Shown here: one piece after another, positions 1 to 10,025 of the stretch
Numbering within the stretch: the first letter of the stretch is position 1
Layout: each line of letters starts with the position of its first letter
Source of the DNA: Salipiger bermudensis
GTDB taxonomy: Bacteria; Pseudomonadota; Alphaproteobacteria; Rhodobacterales; Rhodobacteraceae
Assembly (NCBI RefSeq): GCF_019801965.1
Contig: NZ_JAHVIA010000003.1
Location: forward strand, 62,001 to 126,000
Length of the DNA: 64,000 nucleotides
Direction: 5' to 3'
Position numbers and translations under genes: made by a program
The notes under the pieces: model-generated
Told to the model about the DNA's origin: nothing
Database searches by the model: none
Seen by the model: only the letters and a program-made list of their open reading frames with translations

Positions 1-840
1 CGATCCCGAGAGGAAGAACTCCATGATCGATTGCGCCTGGCTGATGGTGAAGGCGGAGGCGATGGTGCCGAGCAGGCTGGCCGCGCCTCCGAAGACCACC
101 ACGAGGAAGGTGTCGACGATGTAGAGCTGGCCGGCGGTCGGCCCGGTCGAGCCGATCATCGTGAAGGCCGAGCCCGCGACCCCGGCGATGCCGCAGCCGA
201 TGCCGTAGGTCATCCGGTCGGTCCATTCGGTGTTGATGCCGACGGCGCCGGCCATGACGCGGTTCTGGTTGATTGCGCGGACCTGCTGGCCCCAGCGCGA
301 GCGGTACATCATCACGTAGACACCGACGGAAATGCCGATGGCCAGCACCATCACGAAGATGCCGTTGATCGGGATCTCGATCATGTCGGTCAGCGGCAGC
401 GACCCCATCATCCAGTCGGGAATCGTCACGCCGACCTCGCGGGCGCCGAACACCGAGCGATAAACCTGCTGCAGGATCAGGCTGAGGCCCCACGTGGCGA
501 GAAGCGTATCCAGCGGGCGCTTGTAGAGATGCCGGATCATCGCCCATTCGACGAACATGCCCAGCGCGCCGGCGGCTATGAAGGCGAGGATCATCGCGAT
601 GAAGAAATAGGCCGGGAACAGCGCCGGCAGCGCCTCGGCGAAGAAGATTGAGACCAGGTAGGTCACGTAGGCGCCAAGGATCATGAACTCGCCATGCGCC
701 ATGTTGATGACGCCCATCTGGCCGAAGATGATGGCCAGCCCGAGCGCCATGAGCACGAAGACTGAGAAGAGGATGAGGCCGGCGAAACCCTGCATCGCGA
801 AGATCGCGGTCAGCTCGCTCCAGCTGTAATCGGCAAACAT
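1..840 (-). CDS. urtB: Urea ABC transporter permease UrtB (3' end outside the window)
   Basis: Inner-membrane permease of the high-affinity urea importer UrtABCDE (branched-chain amino-acid/LIV-type permease family). The first 280 residues are present, beginning MFADYSWSELTAIFAMQGFA; the C-terminus lies beyond base 1. The sequence is a run of hydrophobic helices with the family signatures GLAIIFGQMGVINMAHGEF near residue 32 and a GIAGVAGS-type loop further on. The ATG at 838-840 is preceded by an AGGAAAG ribosome site. It follows urtA on the same strand after 154 bases that carry a strong hairpin, as is common where a binding-protein gene is expressed above its permease. Identification is confident; only completeness is limited. 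Confidence 0.93.
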   Translation of the reverse strand, partial: MFADYSWSELTAIFAMQGFAGLILFSVFVLMALGLAIIFGQMGVINMAHGEFMILGAYVTYLVSIFFAEALPALFPAYFFIAMILAFIAAGALGMFVEWAMIRHLYKRPLDTLLATWGLSLILQQVYRSVFGAREVGVTIPDWMMGSLPLTDMIEIPINGIFVMVLAIGISVGVYVMMYRSRWGQQVRAINQNRVMAGAVGINTEWTDRMTYGIGCGIAGVAGSAFTMIGSTGPTAGQLYIVDTFLVVVFGGAASLLGTIASAFTISQAQSIMEFFLSGS

Positions 841-994: not shown

Positions 995-2266
995 TTACTG
1001 GTAACCCTCGGGGAAGGGGTTCGGCTCGACGAGGTCCGCGGTCTCGAAGACCACCTCGTACTGGCCGTCGGCCTGGGCCCGCCCGACGCGGGTCTTGGAC
1101 CACAGGTGGTGGTTCTCGTGCACCTTCACGTAGCCCTCCGGCGCCGAGGTCAGCTCGATGCCCGGGCTGGCCGCGCGCACCTTGTCGACATCGAAGGAGC
1201 CCGCCTTCTCGACCGCCGCCTTCCACAGCCACGGGCCGAGATAGGCCGCCTGCGTCACGTCCCCGATCACCATGTCGTCGCCCCACATCTCCTTGAAGGC
1301 GGCCACGAACTCGCGGTTGTTGTCGTTGTCGAGTGACTGGAAGTACTTCATGCAGGCGTAGGCGCCCTCGATGTTCTCGCCGCCGATGCCGCGGATCTCG
1401 TCCTCGGTCACCGAGATGGTGAGCAGCAGCGGGCTTTCCTTGGTCATGTCGATGCCGGCGGCCTTGAGCTGTTTGTAGAAGGCCACGTTGGAGCCGCCCA
1501 CGACGATGGCGTAGATTACGTCGGGCTTCTTCAGGCGGATCTTGTTGATCACCGAGTTGAACTGGGTGTGGCCCAGCGGGTAATACTCCTCGCCCACGAC
1601 CTTGCAGTCGGTGAGGAAGTTCTCGATGTGCTTGCGCGCGATCTTGTTCGAGGTGCGCGGCCAGATGTAGTCGGAGCCGAGCAGGTAGAAGCTCTTGGCG
1701 CCCTTCTCCTTGTTGACCCAGTCGAGGCCGGCGATGATCTGCTGCGTCGCTTCCTGCCCGGTGTAGATCACGTTCGGGCTCTCCTCGAGGCCCTCGTAGA
1801 AGGTCGGGTAGTAGAGGAAGCCGTTATACTGCTCGAACACCGGCAGAACCGCCTTGCGGGAGGCCGAGGTCCAGCAGCCCATCACCGAGGCGACCTTGTC
1901 GTTGACCAAGAGCTTCTTGGCCTTCTCGGCGAAGGTCGGCCAGTCGGAGGCGCCGTCTTCCTGAATGTACTCGATCTTGCGGCCGAGGATGCCGCCCTGC
2001 GCGTTGATCTGCTCGATGGCGAGCTTCTCGGCCTGAACCGAGCCGGTCTCCGAGATCGCCATGGTGCCGGTCACCGAGTGCAGGATGCCGATGGTGACGG
2101 TATCGTCGGTCACCGCGAGGCCGGTCGTGTTGACCTCTGCCGTCGGGTAATCCTGCGCCCGCAGGACCTTGGGTGCGAACAGCGATGCGCTCAGCGCGAC
2201 CCCGCCCGCAAGCAGGGCGCGACGCGATACGCCGTTGTTTTTTCTGGACTTATCGAAATCAGACAT
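995..2266 (-). CDS. urtA: Urea ABC transporter substrate-binding protein UrtA
   Basis: Periplasmic receptor that delivers urea to UrtBC; 423 aa, usual length. The N-terminus has a twin-arginine-type signal (SRRALLAGG at about residues 14-22, then a hydrophobic stretch and a likely cut after LRAQ), suggesting Tat export. The mature part is a Peripla_BP_5/LIV-binding-type fold, with DTVTIGILHSVTGTMAISE at its start, the GCWTSASRKAVLPV segment and a C-terminal HLWSKTRVG region typical of UrtA rather than amino-acid receptors. The ATG is preceded by AAGGAGG seven bases upstream. First gene of the urt operon, divergent from the NCS1-kinase gene with a 332-base shared upstream region. Confidence 0.95.
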   Translation of the reverse strand: MSDFDKSRKNNGVSRRALLAGGVALSASLFAPKVLRAQDYPTAEVNTTGLAVTDDTVTIGILHSVTGTMAISETGSVQAEKLAIEQINAQGGILGRKIEYIQEDGASDWPTFAEKAKKLLVNDKVASVMGCWTSASRKAVLPVFEQYNGFLYYPTFYEGLEESPNVIYTGQEATQQIIAGLDWVNKEKGAKSFYLLGSDYIWPRTSNKIARKHIENFLTDCKVVGEEYYPLGHTQFNSVINKIRLKKPDVIYAIVVGGSNVAFYKQLKAAGIDMTKESPLLLTISVTEDEIRGIGGENIEGAYACMKYFQSLDNDNNREFVAAFKEMWGDDMVIGDVTQAAYLGPWLWKAAVEKAGSFDVDKVRAASPGIELTSAPEGYVKVHENHHLWSKTRVGRAQADGQYEVVFETADLVEPNPFPEGYQ

Positions 2267-2598
2267 GGTGCCTCCTTGTCGGTCAATTTTGCTTGATCGG
2301 GGTTGTGGGCCCCCTTGACCTGAAGGCTGGCAGCTTTGTCGCCGGGCGCGTATACGTTGAATGACGTATATTCATGCGCGTTTTTCCACCTATCATTTTG
2401 ACCATGAACCGGAGCGCCACCGCAGGCGCGGAATCGCTCCGGAGACAACCGACAGGGAGTTCGGGAGAGCGCGAACGCGCCCGATGAGCTCGAGGACATG
2501 AGGACCGCGACAGCCACCGGACGGCGCCAAGGAGAGGCGCGCCCGGCAGCCGAGGGACATGCGCGGTCGAGGGAGGAGGGAATCGGCGAGGTAACCGC
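2267..2598. other. Divergent regulatory region, urtA / NCS1-kinase
   Basis: No gene is supported in these 332 bases. The region must hold the promoters of both the urt operon and the sensor kinase. Its most notable element is an AT-rich palindrome at 2351-2370 in otherwise GC-rich DNA. I looked for a sigma-54 (-24/-12) element towards urtA, as expected for NtrC-controlled urea uptake, and saw no convincing one. Confidence 0.6.
2351..2370. promoter_or_regulatory. Palindrome TATACGT-N6-ACGTATA, candidate operator
   Basis: Perfect 7-bp inverted arms (2351-2357 and 2364-2370) separated by TGAATG, about 85 bases upstream of the urtA start codon and 230 upstream of the kinase gene. The size and symmetry would suit a dimeric HTH regulator, most economically the LuxR-type response regulator encoded at 5945-6868. 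That assignment is inference; only the symmetry is seen. Confidence 0.45.
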
Positions 2599-5500
2599 AT
2601 GCTGGTCCCCTTTGACGCGACGGGTGAACGGCGGCGCTACAACCGCTGGGTCGCCAACGAGACGATCGAGGATTTCGCGCTGCGCTTCACCGCGCGGCGT
2701 GCACGGCGCTGGAGTTATGGCCGCGTGGCGAACACCGCGCTGGGGTCGATCTCGTTCCTCGCGCTCGAGGCCATCGGGGCCGCGATCACCCTGACCTACG
2801 GCTTCTCGCCGGCGATCATCGCGATCATGCTGGTGGGGCTGATCCTGTTCTTGACCGGGCTGCCGATCTGCTACTACGCCGCCCGCTACGGCGTGGATAT
2901 CGACCTGCTGACCCGCGGCGCGGGCTTCGGCTATATCGGCTCGACCATCACCTCCCTGATCTACGCAAGCTTCACCTTCATCTTCTTCGCCCTGGAGGCG
3001 GCGATCCTGGCGCTGGCGCTCGAGTTCTGCTTCGGGCTGCCGGTGATGCTGGGCTACGTGGTCTCGGCGCTGGTGGTGATCCCGCTGGTGATGAACGGCT
3101 TTACCAAGATCTCGGCCTTTCAGGCCTGGACGCAGCCGTTCTGGATCATGCTTCACCTGCTGCCCTTCGGGCTTCTGGCCTGGCACGGCTTCGATCTCGA
3201 GGTCTGGACCAGCTTCGGCGGGCGCGGCGACTCGCTGGTCACCGTGGCAACGGTGGGCGCCGCCGCAGGGGTGGCGCTGTCGCTGATCGCGCAGATCGGC
3301 GAACAGGTCGATTTCCTGCGCTTCCTGCCCGAGCCCGGGACACCGAAGGAGCGCCTGCGCTGGTGGGCGGCGCTGCTCGCCGCGGGCCCGGGCTGGAGCG
3401 TGCTCGGCGTGGCAAAGATGCTGGCGGGCTCGTTCCTCGTCACCCTCGCGGTGGCCTCGGGTGTGCCGGCAGCCGAGGCAACAGATCCCACCAAGCTCTA
3501 CTTCATCGCCTTCGATTACGTCCTGCCGCTGCCAATGCTGGCAATCGGGCTAACCGGAACCTTCGTCATCCTCAGCCAGATGAAGATCAACGTCACCAAC
3601 GCCTATGCCGGCTCGATCGCCTGGTCGAACTTCTTCTCGCGGCTGACCCATTCGCACCCCGGCCGCGTGGTCTGGCTGGTGTTCAACGTCGCCATCGCGC
3701 TGCTGCTGATGATCCTCGGGGTGTTTCACGCCATCGAATACATCCTCGCGCTCTATTCCCACGTGGCGCTGGCCTGGATCGGGGCGCTGGTGGCCGATCT
3801 CGTCATCAACAAGCCGCTTGGGCTCAGCCCCAAGGGCATCGAGTTCCGCCGCGCCCATCTCTACGACGTGAACCCGGTGGGCATCGGTGCGATGGGGCTG
3901 GGCCTGACGCTCTCGCTCATCGCCTTCCTCGGCGGCTTCGGCCCGCTGGCGCAGTCGCTCTCCTCCTTCGTAGCGCTGGCGGCGGCGCTGGTCGCGGCGC
4001 CGCTGATCGCCGCCCTGACGCGCGGACGCTATTACATCGCGCGGCCCGTCGTCGGCGCCGAAGACCTGCCCATCGATGCGCAGGGCACCTGCAGCTGCAC
4101 CGTCTGCGAATACCGCTTCGACCCGCAGGACATGACCGACTGCCCGTTCTACTCGGGCCCGATCTGCTCGCTCTGCTGCACGCTCGACAGCTCCTGCCGC
4201 GACGCCTGCAAGCCGCAGGCCCGGCTCGACACCATGACCGTGGCCACCATACGCCGCCTGCTGCCAGAGCGCGTGGCCAACGCGCTGATGTCGCGGCTGG
4301 CGCGGTTCATGATCGGGACGGCGGTGCCCGCCTCGGCCTTCGGCGTCGTGCTTCTGGTGATCCGGGCGCGGGCGGGGAGCGACAATTTCGACGCCGTGCT
4401 GACGGCGATCTTCTCGACCATGCTGGTGGTCATCGGCATCATCGTCTGGACCCTGATCCTCGCCACCGAGAGCCAGCACAAGGCGCGCGACGAGGCCGAC
4501 CTGCAGACACAGCGCCTCCTGCGCGAGATCCGCGCCCACGAGCGCACCGACGCAGCGCTTCAGGCCGCCAAGGAGAAGGCCGAGGCCGCGAACAACGCCA
4601 AGACCCGCTACATGGCCGGCATCAGCCACGAGCTGCGCACGCCTCTCAACGCGATCTACGGGTTTGCCCAGCTGCTCGAGCACGACCCCGACATGCCCGA
4701 CGGCCGGCGCGACGCGGTGCTGGCGATCCGGCGCTCCTCGGAGCATCTCGCCGGGCTGATCGAGAACCTGCTCGACATCTCCAAGATCGAGGCCGGCCGG
4801 CTCGAGATCAACCGCGACCGCATCAACCTGCCCTCGCTGCTCCGCCATGCCGCCTCGATCTTCGAGGGGCAGGCCCGCGCCAAGGGGCTCGATTTCGGCA
4901 TCCGCACCACCGGCGCGCTGCCGGAATGGGTCGATTTCGACAAGAAGCGCCTGCGCCAGATCATCATCAACCTGCTGTCCAACGCCATCCACTACACCGA
5001 GAGCGGCTCGGTGACGCTGCATGTCCATTACCGCAACGAGGTCGCGGTGATCGAGGTGGCCGATACCGGCATAGGCATCCCGCAAGACCAGATCGGGCGC
5101 ATCTGGTCGCCCTTCGAGCGGCTGCGCAGCAGCTCCGCCGCGGGCTCCGGCCTTGGGCTGACCATCACCAAGTTGCTGGTCGAGATCCTCGGCGGCGAGA
5201 TCACCGTCGAGAGCGAACCGGGCCGCGGCAGCTGTTTCACCGTCAAGCTGATGCTGCCCTCGGTGGCCGGCAGCCCGCTGCGGCCGCGGGCCGAGCAACT
5301 CGAGCGCGGCGGCGAGCTGCCCGTGGGCTACCTCGGGGCGCGCCGCACGGTGATGGTCGTCGATGACGATATCAACCACCTGCGCCTGCTCGAGACGGTG
5401 CTGCGCCCGCTCGGCTTTCTGGTGCAGGCGATGCCCGATGCCGAGACCGCGCTGCAGGTGCTGGGCGACGTGGCGCCCGATGTCTTCGTGCTCGATATCG

Positions 5501-5955
5501 ACATGCCCGGCATGGATGGCTGGCAGCTCGCCGAGCACCTGCGCGCCACCCCCGAGCATCGCACCACGCCGATCCTCATGGTCTCGGGCCACGCGCTCGA
5601 GGCCACCGAGCCGGTCGAGCGCAAGGGCCTGTTCGACGCCTTCATCGTCAAGCCCTACTCCATCGCCGACGCGCTCAACCGCATGGCCGGGATGATGAAG
5701 CTCGAGCTGGTCTACGAGCCGACGGTCAACGCGCCCACTGCCGCCGAGTCTGCCCTTGCCCCCGCCGTTCTGAGCCGCCTGTCGGAGCTCGTCGCCATCG
5801 GCCACGCGGCGGGGATCGCCCGCGAACTCAAGAGCCTCGAAGACAGCGGCAGCCTCGCCACCTCCCAGATCGAACGCTTCCGCGGACGCCTGCAGGAATT
5901 CGACATGCAGGGTCTCCAGCGCCTGATAGAAGAGATGAAACGCCATGCAGCCTGA
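2599..5955 (+). CDS. NCS1-transporter / hybrid histidine kinase fusion (sensor)
   Basis: 1118-residue membrane sensor. Residues 15-480 resemble the NCS1 nucleobase:cation symporter family (NRWVANETIEDFALRF start, about 12 hydrophobic segments). Residues 498-537 hold nine cysteines (C498, C500, C503, C515, C523, C526, C527, C533, C537), a possible metal or disulfide site. Two more membrane helices follow (about 570-622), then a coiled coil and HisKA with phospho-acceptor H677 (GISHELRTPLNAI), HATPase_c with N795, DTGIGIP and GSGLGL, and a receiver domain with acidic DDD near 923, acceptor D966 (VLDIDMPG) and K1018. The C-terminal 85 residues are helical and unassigned. It overlaps the response-regulator gene by 11 bases and diverges from urtA. 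By analogy with CbrA-type transporter-kinases it may couple substrate binding or transport to signalling; urea or a nucleobase is a guess from context. Confidence 0.88.
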   Translation: MLVPFDATGERRRYNRWVANETIEDFALRFTARRARRWSYGRVANTALGSISFLALEAIGAAITLTYGFSPAIIAIMLVGLILFLTGLPICYYAARYGVDIDLLTRGAGFGYIGSTITSLIYASFTFIFFALEAAILALALEFCFGLPVMLGYVVSALVVIPLVMNGFTKISAFQAWTQPFWIMLHLLPFGLLAWHGFDLEVWTSFGGRGDSLVTVATVGAAAGVALSLIAQIGEQVDFLRFLPEPGTPKERLRWWAALLAAGPGWSVLGVAKMLAGSFLVTLAVASGVPAAEATDPTKLYFIAFDYVLPLPMLAIGLTGTFVILSQMKINVTNAYAGSIAWSNFFSRLTHSHPGRVVWLVFNVAIALLLMILGVFHAIEYILALYSHVALAWIGALVADLVINKPLGLSPKGIEFRRAHLYDVNPVGIGAMGLGLTLSLIAFLGGFGPLAQSLSSFVALAAALVAAPLIAALTRGRYYIARPVVGAEDLPIDAQGTCSCTVCEYRFDPQDMTDCPFYSGPICSLCCTLDSSCRDACKPQARLDTMTVATIRRLLPERVANALMSRLARFMIGTAVPASAFGVVLLVIRARAGSDNFDAVLTAIFSTMLVVIGIIVWTLILATESQHKARDEADLQTQRLLREIRAHERTDAALQAAKEKAEAANNAKTRYMAGISHELRTPLNAIYGFAQLLEHDPDMPDGRRDAVLAIRRSSEHLAGLIENLLDISKIEAGRLEINRDRINLPSLLRHAASIFEGQARAKGLDFGIRTTGALPEWVDFDKKRLRQIIINLLSNAIHYTESGSVTLHVHYRNEVAVIEVADTGIGIPQDQIGRIWSPFERLRSSSAAGSGLGLTITKLLVEILGGEITVESEPGRGSCFTVKLMLPSVAGSPLRPRAEQLERGGELPVGYLGARRTVMVVDDDINHLRLLETVLRPLGFLVQAMPDAETALQVLGDVAPDVFVLDIDMPGMDGWQLAEHLRATPEHRTTPILMVSGHALEATEPVERKGLFDAFIVKPYSIADALNRMAGMMKLELVYEPTVNAPTAAESALAPAVLSRLSELVAIGHAAGIARELKSLEDSGSLATSQIERFRGRLQEFDMQGLQRLIEEMKRHAA

Positions 5956-6868
5956 ACGACATCTCCTTCCCACCGACCGCTCCATCGCCCTCGTCATCGA
6001 CGACGCGCCCGAGACCCTCGGGCTGGTCTCGGCGGCGCTGGAAGACAACGGCATGACCGTGCTCGTGGCCCGCTCCGGCGCCGAGGGTCAGGAGCTGGCC
6101 CGCCGGGTGCAGCCCGACGTGATCCTGATGGACGCGGTGATGCCTGGCATGGACGGGTTCGAGACTTGCCGCCGGCTCAAGGCCGCCGCCGATCCGATCA
6201 CCGCGCCGGTGATCTTCATGACCGGGCTGACCGAGCCCGAGCACATCCTCAAGGGGCTGCGCGCCGGCGGGGTCGACTACATCACAAAGCCGGTGATCGT
6301 CGACGAGCTGATCGCGCGGATCATCACCCACGTGCTCAACGCCCGCGCCATCAGCTCGGCCCGCACCGCGCTCGACCGCGCCGGGCAGAGCGTCCTGGCC
6401 TTCGGGCCGCGCGGCACGCTGAACTGGGGCTCGGCCGGCGCGATGGCGCTGCTGGCGCAGCCCGCCGCGCAGGCGCTGGTACAGGACGGCCGCGCCACGC
6501 CGCCCCTGTCCAACTGGCTGGCAGAGCTCGGGCGGCAGCCGCTCTCGGCGACCTCTGCCTATACCGCCGACGGCTTCGCGCTGAAATATCTCGGCGCCGG
6601 CCCCGGCGAGACCATGGTCTCGATCCGCGCCTACCAGGAGGGCCAGAACGAGCGCCGGCTGGAGGCCGAGTTCGGCCTGACCCGGCGCGAGGCGGAGGTG
6701 CTGTTCTGGCTGTCGCGCGGCAAGACCAACCGCGACATCGCCGAGATCCTCGATCTCAGCGCCCGCACGGTGAACAAGCATCTCGAGCAGGTGTTTCACA
6801 AGATGGGCGTCGACAACCGCACCTCGGCGGCGGTGATGGCCGACCGGGCGCTGCAGGCGGGGCTCTGA
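5945..6868 (+). CDS. Response regulator, REC + LuxR-type HTH
   Basis: 307 aa. An N-terminal receiver domain (ALVIDDAPET, phospho-acceptor D63 in ILMDAVMPGMDG, switch T93, K115 in ITKP) is joined by a linker of about 110 residues to a C-terminal GerE/LuxR DNA-binding domain (about 243-303, FGLTRREAEVLFWLSRGKTN ... RTVNKHLEQVFHKMGV). The start codon lies inside the end of the sensor kinase gene (11-base overlap), so the two are translationally coupled and are almost certainly cognate partners. The divergent urt operon and its own promoter are the obvious candidate targets (inference). The linker is longer than in a plain NarL protein and might hold an extra sensing or dimerisation segment. Confidence 0.9.
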   Translation: MQPERHLLPTDRSIALVIDDAPETLGLVSAALEDNGMTVLVARSGAEGQELARRVQPDVILMDAVMPGMDGFETCRRLKAAADPITAPVIFMTGLTEPEHILKGLRAGGVDYITKPVIVDELIARIITHVLNARAISSARTALDRAGQSVLAFGPRGTLNWGSAGAMALLAQPAAQALVQDGRATPPLSNWLAELGRQPLSATSAYTADGFALKYLGAGPGETMVSIRAYQEGQNERRLEAEFGLTRREAEVLFWLSRGKTNRDIAEILDLSARTVNKHLEQVFHKMGVDNRTSAAVMADRALQAGL

Positions 6869-6946: not shown

Positions 6947-9106
6947 TCACTCGAGCTCGAAGGACCAGAAGAAGGTCTCGCCCGAGCTGTCGTCGACGCC
7001 GTCATTGTCGGTCGAGACATAGACGGTGCCCGCCTCGGTGATCGCCAGCCCCTCGACCTTGTCGACCACGTAGCCGCCCCAGCCCTTCAGGTCGGGGATC
7101 AGGTCGCGCACCTCTTCCTTGCTCACCACTGGCAGCTCGCCGCCCAGCGCCGCGGGCTGCATCTCGGCCAGCGGGATGCGGTAGACCTTCTTGGTCACCG
7201 CATTGGCGCCGATCTGGTTGTCGCGCTCGACGACGTAGACGTAATCGCCATGGGCGGTGATCTCCGACAGGCCGACCCAGCCGGTCTCCGGCGTGGCCTT
7301 GGCATAGCGCACGGCGCCCCATTCCCCGGTCTCGGGGGTGTAGGAGACCAGCTTGACGTGATCCGCCGGATCGTCGCCCCACTCGCGCTGCACCGCCATC
7401 CACAGCGTGCCGTCGACCATCGTCACCCCCTCGAAGCCGAAGCGCTTCTCGACGGCCAGCAGCTCGGCCGGCAGGGAGACCTCTTCCTCGATCTCGCCCT
7501 CGGCGCTCACGTGGTAGAGCGCGTGCGGCACGAGCCGGTCGCTGCGGCCCTCGGAGGCCAGCCAGAAACCGCCCTCGCCATCGGTGGTGATGCCCTCGAG
7601 GTCGAGCTTCTGCGCGTTGCGGCCCTTGCGGGTCACGTCGGTGGCCGCGACGATGCGCGCCGGGCTCTGCGACGGATCGATGGTGAAGATGCGCGGCTGG
7701 TAGCCGTAGAAGCTGTCATTGACGGCGTAGATCATGCCGTCATCGCCGGCGACCATGCCCGAGATCGCGCCCCAGCCAATCAGCTCGTCGGCGCCGTCCG
7801 AGGTCAGTGTCGGGTACTGCGCCGCGCCCTCGGCATACTCGTAGATCATCACGTGAGCGCGCACGCCGCCATCCTCGACGAGGTCTTCCTCGTTGGCGGT
7901 GACGAAGAGGTTGCGCTGCGGGATCGCCACGGCGCCCTCGGGGGCGATGCCCGAGGGCAGCAGCTGCTTGAGCACCGGCGCCGCCGGGTCGGTCATGTCG
8001 TAGACGCCGACCATCGAGGCGCGCTCGGCCAGCACGAAGAGGAAGGGAGTCTCGCCGAAACGCGCGAATTCCATGCCCTCGGGCTCGACGCCCTTGGCGT
8101 CGGAGCGCTTGTCCGGGTAGTGGCCGGCGCGGATCACCGCCTGCTCGAAGGTGATGCCGCTCTCGAAGACCTCGGTGCCGTCCTTGTGGAACACGGTGAA
8201 GCCGCGCGCCCCGCCATCCATGTCGCCCTCGTTGGCGATGGCGAAGTGGCTATCGTCGATCCACTGCACGCCATCGGGCTCGCGCAGGCGACCCTGCTGG
8301 CTCTCGGTGAAGAGCAGCGCGCCGCGCTCGTCGGTGGCGTCGATACCCTCGAGGTCGACCGCGCCGGCGGAGAAGTGCGACAGCACCTCGCCCGCCTTGT
8401 CCAGAACCACGATGTGGTTGTTTTCCTGCAGGGTGACGACGATCTCGCCGGCGCCGTTCACGTCGACGAACTCGGGCTCGGGATCTTCCGGTGCGATCTC
8501 TGCAAGGCCGGTGACATCGGCCTTCACGAGGCTGTCGCACGCGGCCACGCCATCGACCACGTCGAGGATCGCGACAAAGCCCGCGGGCATCTGCGGCACG
8601 CGGCCGTCACCCAGATCCTCGTCACGCTCGTTCTCGATGGCGATGGTGACGAAGCTGCCATCCTTGGCCATGGCGGTGCTGTCGGGCTGGCCGCCGAGGT
8701 CGCATTCGCCCAGCGTCTCGCCAGAGGTCGCGTCGATCATCACCAGCTTGCCCGAGGGATCGGTGTAGCTCTGGGAGGTGTTCACGCCGGCGAAGATGGT
8801 GTTGCCGGAGACGTAGACCGAGGTCGGCTCGCCATCGACGGCGATGTTGCCGAGCGGCTGCGGGTTGGCCGGGTCGGTGATGTCGATGCGGCCGATGACG
8901 CCGAGCGGGCTGTCGGTATAGACCAGCGTGTTGCCATCCTCGGTGGCGTAGATGATCTCGGCCGAGGTGACGCGCGCGCGGTCCTCGCCCTCGGCCATGT
9001 CGGCCGGGGTCGCGAAGGAGGCGATGCGGTTGAAGTTCATCTCGGCTGCGGCGGCGGTTGCCGACAGCGCCAGCGCCGAGGTGAGGCAGAGCGTGCGGAA
9101 GTGCAT
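6947..9106 (-). CDS. Secreted phytase-like beta-propeller protein (esterase-like activity of phytase family)
   Basis: 719 aa from the ATG at 9106, chosen because it gives a clean signal peptide (MHFRTLCLTSALALSATAAAA, cut before EMNF); an in-frame extension upstream to 9313 has no such signal. The N-terminal two thirds (residues about 30-430) reads as a beta-propeller of the choice-of-anchor-I type (repeated GxIxxxDxxxPxxP blades, GVEPEGMEF). The C-terminal part (about 440-719) matches the phytase-like domain (LDLEGITTDGEGGFWLASEG, FEGVTMVDG, VDKVEGLAI). Probably periplasmic or extracellular; related proteins are poorly characterised, and phosphatase activity is only suggested by the family name. 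Stands alone, convergent with the two-component system. Confidence 0.8.
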   Translation of the reverse strand: MHFRTLCLTSALALSATAAAAEMNFNRIASFATPADMAEGEDRARVTSAEIIYATEDGNTLVYTDSPLGVIGRIDITDPANPQPLGNIAVDGEPTSVYVSGNTIFAGVNTSQSYTDPSGKLVMIDATSGETLGECDLGGQPDSTAMAKDGSFVTIAIENERDEDLGDGRVPQMPAGFVAILDVVDGVAACDSLVKADVTGLAEIAPEDPEPEFVDVNGAGEIVVTLQENNHIVVLDKAGEVLSHFSAGAVDLEGIDATDERGALLFTESQQGRLREPDGVQWIDDSHFAIANEGDMDGGARGFTVFHKDGTEVFESGITFEQAVIRAGHYPDKRSDAKGVEPEGMEFARFGETPFLFVLAERASMVGVYDMTDPAAPVLKQLLPSGIAPEGAVAIPQRNLFVTANEEDLVEDGGVRAHVMIYEYAEGAAQYPTLTSDGADELIGWGAISGMVAGDDGMIYAVNDSFYGYQPRIFTIDPSQSPARIVAATDVTRKGRNAQKLDLEGITTDGEGGFWLASEGRSDRLVPHALYHVSAEGEIEEEVSLPAELLAVEKRFGFEGVTMVDGTLWMAVQREWGDDPADHVKLVSYTPETGEWGAVRYAKATPETGWVGLSEITAHGDYVYVVERDNQIGANAVTKKVYRIPLAEMQPAALGGELPVVSKEEVRDLIPDLKGWGGYVVDKVEGLAITEAGTVYVSTDNDGVDDSSGETFFWSFELE

Positions 9107-9236
9107 GGAAGGTCCCCTGTCTTGGTCCGGCAAGGCCATGCGCCCGCCGCGTAACGGCAGCGTGACAGGACGGTTAAGGATTTGCGAAACGCCGGGGTCG
9201 GGGCCGAGAAGCGGCCCGAAAGGGCCCGCCGAGGCG

Positions 9237-10025
9237 CTAGCCCAGAAGTCGCTCGATGATCGCGCTGTCGGGCTCGGCCAGCCCGTCGATGACGTTGAAA
9301 TGGTGTTTGCCATCTGCCACCACCACCGGGCAGGACCACGCCTCGCCCAGCCAGCGCGCCTGATCGAGAAAGACCGGCCGTTCCTCGGCGCCGACCCAGA
9401 CCGTCACCGGCCGCTCCGGCGGCGCCATCGCGACCGGGCTCTCCGCCCAGGCCTCGTCGGCGTCGAGCTGCAGCTTCTCGTTCATACCGGTCTGCATCAG
9501 CGGCCGCAGGTCCGAGAGCGGCGAGATCGGCATGACATGATCGACCCGCGCCGCGACCTCGTCCGGCAGCATCGCCGGGGCCAGCATCCGCGCCACCAGA
9601 TGCCCGCCCGCCGAGTGGCCGGCCAGCCGGATCGGCCCGTCGATCTCGCGCGCCGCCGCCGTCACCGCCGCGGCGATCTGCCGGGTGATGCCGGAGATCC
9701 GCACCTCGGGGCAGAGATCATACGAAGGCAGCGCCACCGCCCAGCCCCGCACCACCGCGCCGCCCGCCAGATGCGACCAGGTCTCGCGCCCGAACGCCAT
9801 CCAGTAGCCGCCATGCACGAAGACCAGCAGCCCCTTCGGCGCCCCCTTGGGCAAAAACAGGTCGAACCGCTCGCGCGCGCCTGCCCCGTAGGCAAGCCCC
9901 TCGCGCAGCCGCCCCTTTAGGGCCAATGCCTTGCGGTAACAGGAGGCCGCCTGCGTCCAGCGCGGAGGGTAGTCCTCGGCCTGCGCAATATATGGCCCGT
10001 TGGCATAGGCGTCGCTCAGGTCCAT
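9237..10025 (-). CDS. Alpha/beta hydrolase, arylformamidase-like
   Basis: 262 aa. Carries the oxyanion-hole motif HGGYW (about residue 71), the nucleophile elbow GHSAGGH and a C-terminal histidine (KHHFNVIDGL), the pattern of the esterase/lipase-like branch that includes kynurenine formamidase KynB-like enzymes. Cytoplasmic, no signal peptide. It diverges from the semialdehyde dehydrogenase gene at 10112 across an 86-base gap; no kynurenine-pathway gene lies nearby, so the substrate is unknown. The hydrolase class is confident, the specific reaction is not. Confidence 0.8.
   Translation of the reverse strand: MDLSDAYANGPYIAQAEDYPPRWTQAASCYRKALALKGRLREGLAYGAGARERFDLFLPKGAPKGLLVFVHGGYWMAFGRETWSHLAGGAVVRGWAVALPSYDLCPEVRISGITRQIAAAVTAAAREIDGPIRLAGHSAGGHLVARMLAPAMLPDEVAARVDHVMPISPLSDLRPLMQTGMNEKLQLDADEAWAESPVAMAPPERPVTVWVGAEERPVFLDQARWLGEAWSCPVVVADGKHHFNVIDGLAEPDSAIIERLLG

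Follow-up and report, generated by a model that had tools for sequence, protein, structure and literature searches.

Salipiger bermudensis encodes, in the 64,000-nt stretch of DNA analysed here (the window), a hybrid sensor histidine kinase with an N-terminal transporter module of the NCS1 fold and, coupled to it, a LuxR-type response regulator; both genes are divergent from urtA, the first gene of an operon for an ABC importer and a formamidase (Table 1). We consider it likely that the two proteins constitute a dedicated two-component system that senses a small primary amide and, via an operator upstream of urtA, activates the urtABCDE-formamidase operon. Sequence comparison across relatives of the locus supports the view that sensor, regulator and operator are co-inherited and serve the uptake and hydrolysis of amides or urea.

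Table 1 Features of the urtA-kinase-regulator locus (window positions).
Feature	Position	Strand	Basis
urtB, cut by the window edge	1..840	-	Start codon by inspection
urtA, substrate-binding protein of the amide-type class	995..2266	-	Pfam, TIGR03407, comparison
Predicted operator, inverted repeat TATACGTTGAATGACGTATA, centre 94 bp upstream of urtA	2351..2370		Dyad comparison
Hybrid sensor histidine kinase with N-terminal NCS1-fold transporter module, 1118 aa	2599..5955	+	Pfam, AlphaFold model, fold searches
NCS1-fold transmembrane module, residues about 21-476	2659..4026	+	AlphaFold model and fold searches
Cys-rich module, residues 500-538, Cx2C...CP...ICSLCC...CxDxCK	4096..4212	+	Alignment
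Predicted helices 566-591 and 597-646	4294..4536	+	Model secondary structure
HisKA, phospho-acceptor His677	4600..4797	+	Pfam, alignment
HATPase_c	4939..5256	+	Pfam
Receiver domain of the kinase, Asp966	5350..5676	+	Pfam, alignment
Response regulator: receiver (Asp63), linker of ~120 residues, LuxR-type HTH	5945..6868	+	Pfam, alignment

The complete HisKA/HATPase/receiver chain that the first-pass annotation had described as fused to a transporter module was recovered by the Pfam scan (HisKA, HATPase_c and receiver), and the coordinates agree with the 11-base overlap between the kinase gene end and the regulator gene start and with the divergence from urtA. His677 and Asp966 are invariant in all 128 aligned kinases of more than 1030 residues; 13 partial or redundant kinases were left out of the alignment, and kinases of 1030 residues or fewer also out of the phospho-acceptor counts. 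Asp63 of the 307-residue regulator is likewise invariant (125 of 125 aligned regulators, after those outside 251-379 residues had been dropped). Together, kinase and LuxR-type regulator possess HisKA, HATPase, receiver and HTH domains and the invariant phospho-acceptors of a two-component system. The C-terminal tail of the kinase was considered as an Hpt domain and rejected, since residue 1069 (His in the window) is a histidine in 53 of the 128 sequences and a tyrosine in another 53. The eight cysteines of the Cys-rich module are invariant in 128/128 aligned kinases, and among 200 genomes searched this module was confined to the present kinase family. The model predicts two helices after this module; they are likely membrane helices, and the second would extend towards the kinase. 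Downstream of the regulator, a convergent gene (6947-9313) encodes a product with a Phytase-like domain.

Fold searches with the AlphaFold model of the transporter module returned NCS1 proteins as the best matches, over about 400 residues of CodB and Mhp1 (kinase residues 23-476 and 21-513, respectively) at an identity of 15-17%, and SLC5-fold chains ranked below the NCS1 chains. At the level of profiles, neither the window protein nor any of 36 aligned rows matched PF02133 (NCS1) above the Pfam cut-off or the SSF (SLC5) domain, and sequence search returned no solved relative of the module. The earlier description of the module as NCS1-like hence stands for its fold, and direct assignment by Pfam was negative, the module lying below PF02133 detection; CodB and Mhp1 share the fold but, unlike the window protein, are not fused to a kinase. 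The closest unfused relative above the PF02133 cut-off that we saw, at locus L201 (9249-14281), is not a member of the kinase family. It is an NCS1 transporter whose gene adjoins those of a carbon-nitrogen hydrolase, an AmiC/UrtA-type binding protein and an AmiR-type regulator, which makes it a candidate amide transporter; this context, a single case, is consistent with amide binding by that branch of the NCS1 fold.

Transporter-fold modules are likewise fused to histidine kinases in CrbS/CrbR, CbrA/CbrB and RpuS/RpuR. In the available parts of the published reports, CrbS (acetate) is a hybrid kinase whose LuxR-type partner CrbR depends on an inverted repeat upstream of the genes it controls (PMC5715377), and CbrA (PMC13022988) and RpuS are fusions of an SLC5 transporter to a kinase. 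The CbrA-type logic proposed for the window protein is upheld, with one difference from CrbS, CbrA and RpuS in the module, which is NCS1-like and not SLC5, and a second, probable one in the linker, where a Cys-rich module lies at the position of STAC, a family not listed in the whole-protein Pfam scan of the kinase. From CrbR, the window system differs in operator sequence and in having amide and urea genes as targets. The literature covered, most subscription journals lying outside it, yielded neither an NCS1-kinase fusion nor a role for this regulator. To our knowledge, NCS1 is the second LeuT-fold transporter family among kinase fusions.

Beyond the window edge, urtB is followed in the same orientation of the contig by urtC, urtD, urtE and fmdA, the only FmdA_AmdA gene in the genome (FmdA, 612 bits against PF03069). 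The urea importer that the first-pass annotation had placed beside the kinase is thus part of the picture: the link to urea genes is real, and the kinase's own neighbour is a formamidase operon, urtABCDE-fmdA. The genome encodes a second UrtA (C1:201412), which is canonical and 40% identical to the window UrtA, and urease genes are present elsewhere. With 550 bits, the window UrtA exceeds the curated cut-off of TIGR03407 (492.75), which also accepts the UrtA of locus L106; because this profile accepts both UrtA classes, the window protein cannot safely be called a 'urea transporter'. In 63 columns, 119 amide-type sequences are separated from 41 canonical UrtA at at least 90% in each class, and the residues shared by canonical UrtA are missing from the window UrtA; its Phe156 corresponds to Gln in the three solved chains compared, two of them labelled urea. 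Judging from these sequences, the annotation 'urea transporter' is probably wrong for amide importers. Operon composition and the separate UrtA class make a short-amide cue (formamide) at least as likely as urea in the window system.

A formamidase or amidase is likewise combined with an ABC importer for amides in Methylophilus fmdCABDEF and in AmiC/AmiR systems. As far as the available portions of the sources go, the Methylophilus fmd cluster is induced by formamide and urea and a putative positive regulator is named (PMC10781810; FmdB in PMC13209695), other amidase operons are controlled by AmiC/AmiR, and formamide import was suggested in 2026 for urtABCDE beside a formamidase in P. veronii (both PMC13209695). 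In contrast to the systems with FmdB or AmiC/AmiR, the window operon adjoins a membrane two-component system.

Of 398 evenly drawn Pseudomonadota genomes, 52, the window genome among them, contained the module at E <= 1e-20. Within the order of the window, 6 of 148 genomes, again including its own, carry the module at at least 52% identity, and four further genomes carry only a 25-29% relative. All 57 other loci of the phylum draw were taken with their flanks, 56 of which belong to the family after L201 was set aside, and neighbour tables were made by tblastn with set thresholds. The regulator is present at 54 of these 56 loci. Formamidase, amidase, urease or urt genes were also found at 54: amide-type urtA with fmdA at 35 (20 of them also with an AmiE-type amidase), fmdA with amiS at two, urease at seven, urease with canonical urtA at four and canonical urtA at six. 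The two loci with none are L156, whose contig of 66 kb ends close to the kinase start, and L200, where the whole contig measures 4.8 kb. The proposed link to urt and urease genes thus extends to the orthologues. Among the best 80 of 272 relatives from a contig scan, 78 carry at least one amide or urea gene; of the remaining two, L081 is a contig of 5 kb, and L084 is a genuine exception, no amide or urea gene being found within about 10 kb. Counts of the two sets are kept separate because they share at least one locus (L099/L166).

Annotated plasmid records showed similar layouts and, in addition, variants with fmdA and AmiS/UreI without urt beside the kinase, or with urt on the far side and no formamidase seen. 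At the Klebsiella locus L020, a nitrilase-type formamidase follows urtE, where others have FmdA, and a further gene, of the FmdA family, is located some 10 kb past the regulator side; at L091, an AmiF-like gene lies past the regulator. Klebsiella accounts for 342 of the 531 matching plasmid records, and clpK and hsp20 genes are near the locus on the L020 record. Two records named Acinetobacter phage (H91 and H92; 329 and 379 kb) contain a module relative of 53% identity and may be plasmids.

Typical NCS1 transporters bind nucleobases, hydantoin or allantoin, and the fold of the module would suit a sensor for one of these compounds to which the adjacent urt genes are incidental. Set against the 54 of 56 loci linked to amide or urea genes, and against an operator common to amide-type and canonical urtA promoters (see below), such a sensor is barely plausible. 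Among the ligands first suggested, urea fits the linkage, and allantoin and nucleobases found no support in neighbourhoods tabulated for amide and urea genes.

The operator emerged from 118 divergent urtA-kinase regions, in which the commonest 5-base dyad, ATACG-N8-CGTAT, is exact in 83 and present with up to two mismatches of 10 in 114 (110 of 114 distinct regions); five base shuffles gave no dyad above two occurrences. Column conservation is 0.86 inside the repeat versus 0.46-0.47 in the flanks, and the repeat is centred a median of 95 bp from urtA, on its upstream side (94 in the window). With at most one mismatch, ATACGTNNNNNNACGTAT occurs at one place in the 4.83-Mb genome, as an exact match at window positions 2352-2369; this uniqueness alone is weak, as a reversed control pattern matched two places. 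Shuffles ignore common descent, so three further operator tests matter. A weight matrix (threshold 12), which found 0 matches in 410 kb of one shuffle, matched within about 160 bp upstream of canonical urtA at 8 of 13 urea-linked loci (L103, L178, L180, L181, L187, L188, L189 and L191). At this threshold, no match preceded canonical urtA at L095, L177, L179 and L186, and L101, also below it, has a variant dyad, TACGCC-N6-GGCGTA. From 46 UrtA matches in the family of the window, we took 29 new loci and added L106. None of 29 canonical urtA promoters (28 genomes and the second copy of the window genome; their short flanks showed no kinase) reached a score of 5, the best being 4.2, and the single amide-type urtA of this draw, with a kinase adjoining, scored 29.6 at 96 bp.

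The third test came from S. meliloti, the sequence of which was left out of matrix building and where SMb20609/SMb20610 belong to the family. The sole matrix match above 8 in 19.6 kb lies about 105 bp before canonical urtA (SMb20605, judged by position), three genes away from the kinase. In the accessible part of the literature, SMb20609 is a functionally uncharacterised, PhaR-controlled histidine kinase and SMb20610 a response regulator (PMC12542648). In NC_003078, the sequence that matches the kinase family begins 105 bp past the PhaR site published for SMb20609, and the layout recurs at the ml59 locus. Differing from the window, this pair is linked to canonical urt, with no formamidase within the 9-kb flanks. 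The pSymB copy (L203) adjoins genes for a dicarboxylate symporter and dctD.

Elsewhere, the operator was less regular. Two of eight urease-only loci (L100 and L198) have a matrix match, both near the kinase start, and the other six have none at all; L023, where kinase, regulator and urt are present, gave no operator match either. A strict sigma-54 pattern was found before urtA in 0 of 118 regions, and no sigma-70-like promoter was found in the window urtA-kinase region. In one urea-linked clade (L101, L103, L188 and L189), the operator has TACGCC or GCGTA halves, and the recognition helix of the regulator reads ATVKK (L101, L189) or RTVHK (L188) in place of RTVNK, a possible co-change of operator and helix.

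We further compared the modules in a 91-row tree (quick IQ-TREE, SH-aLRT support only). The urea-linked label requires at least five changes on the starred branches, compared with a shuffled mean of 19.2, so association of the sensor with formamidase on the one hand, and with urease or canonical urt genes on the other, arose repeatedly. L023, without fmdA, was labelled amide on its UrtA score alone (46% versus 43% identity). The basal four rows (L016, L022, L193 and L196), of about 870-890 residues and without C-terminal receiver, gave no match to the window-type regulator and no operator; all are beside fmdA, three also with an AmiS-type gene. Helices 1, 3, 6 and 8 are nearly unchanged between amide- and urea-linked members, and the sequence is therefore silent on which ligand binds; no column separates the urea-linked clades by one residue. 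Residues 394-396 in TM10 (window 3778-3786), beside the invariant Trp393, differ in several urea-linked clades and are a possible specificity position, a weak pattern picked from all columns and not evidence alone.

These conserved core helices and repeated label changes would also suit a module that senses urea specifically in all members, with urea serving as gratuitous inducer at formamidase loci whose importer carries both compounds. This reading, which overlaps with the one we prefer, seems rather unlikely to us: 37 of 56 loci have fmdA, none of the 37 has urease within the flanks taken, and four genomes (G300, G363, G380 and G503) keep two paralogues, the first in a formamidase cluster and the other in a urease cluster. 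Formamidase, amidase and urease all release ammonia. The inducer could be such a nitrogen product, for instance ammonium, instead of the substrate, and Amt-kinase fusions exist (PMC12918730, available part). With NCS1 as best fold match and L201, the closest PF02133-positive relative, among amidase genes, we consider a product sensor clearly improbable. The ammonia sensor GrtK/GrtR was considered as a relative of the window system and rejected on its published domain description.

In the preferred mechanism, the transporter-fold module, transporting or not, would bind a primary amide of small size, with formamide and/or urea as the likeliest candidates. The conformational change would then reach His677 via the Cys-rich module and the helices behind it, with Asp966 and Asp63 as later phosphate acceptors, and the regulator would bind the inverted repeat and activate urtA; we infer this ligand and route, and activation rather than repression, from the comparisons above. 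A dedicated amide/urea sensor is favoured by the composition of the adjoining operon, the linkage in the family, the split paralogues, the repeated label changes, the operator in amide-type, urea-linked and S. meliloti urtA promoters and its absence from the controls, the nitrilase-type formamidase in FmdA's place at L020 and the amidase-type neighbours of L201. Counted against it are L084, 5 of 13 canonical-urtA loci, the six urease-only loci, L023 and the missing sigma-70-like promoter. More tentatively, and with slightly more doubt than confidence, we propose that the NCS1-fold protein is the direct receptor for acyclic amides (urea, formamide), with a possibly metal- or redox-sensitive Cys-rich module and its own two-component system.

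If true, this would be a new class of transporter-receptor, regulating amide and urea scavenging in about one-eighth of the sampled Pseudomonadota genomes. The comparison also suggests that many 'urea transporter' annotations may be amide importers. A widespread orphan sensor family gains a predicted ligand class, operator and regulon, and paralogues that serve formamidase and urease within one genome offer a natural experiment on sensor specificity.
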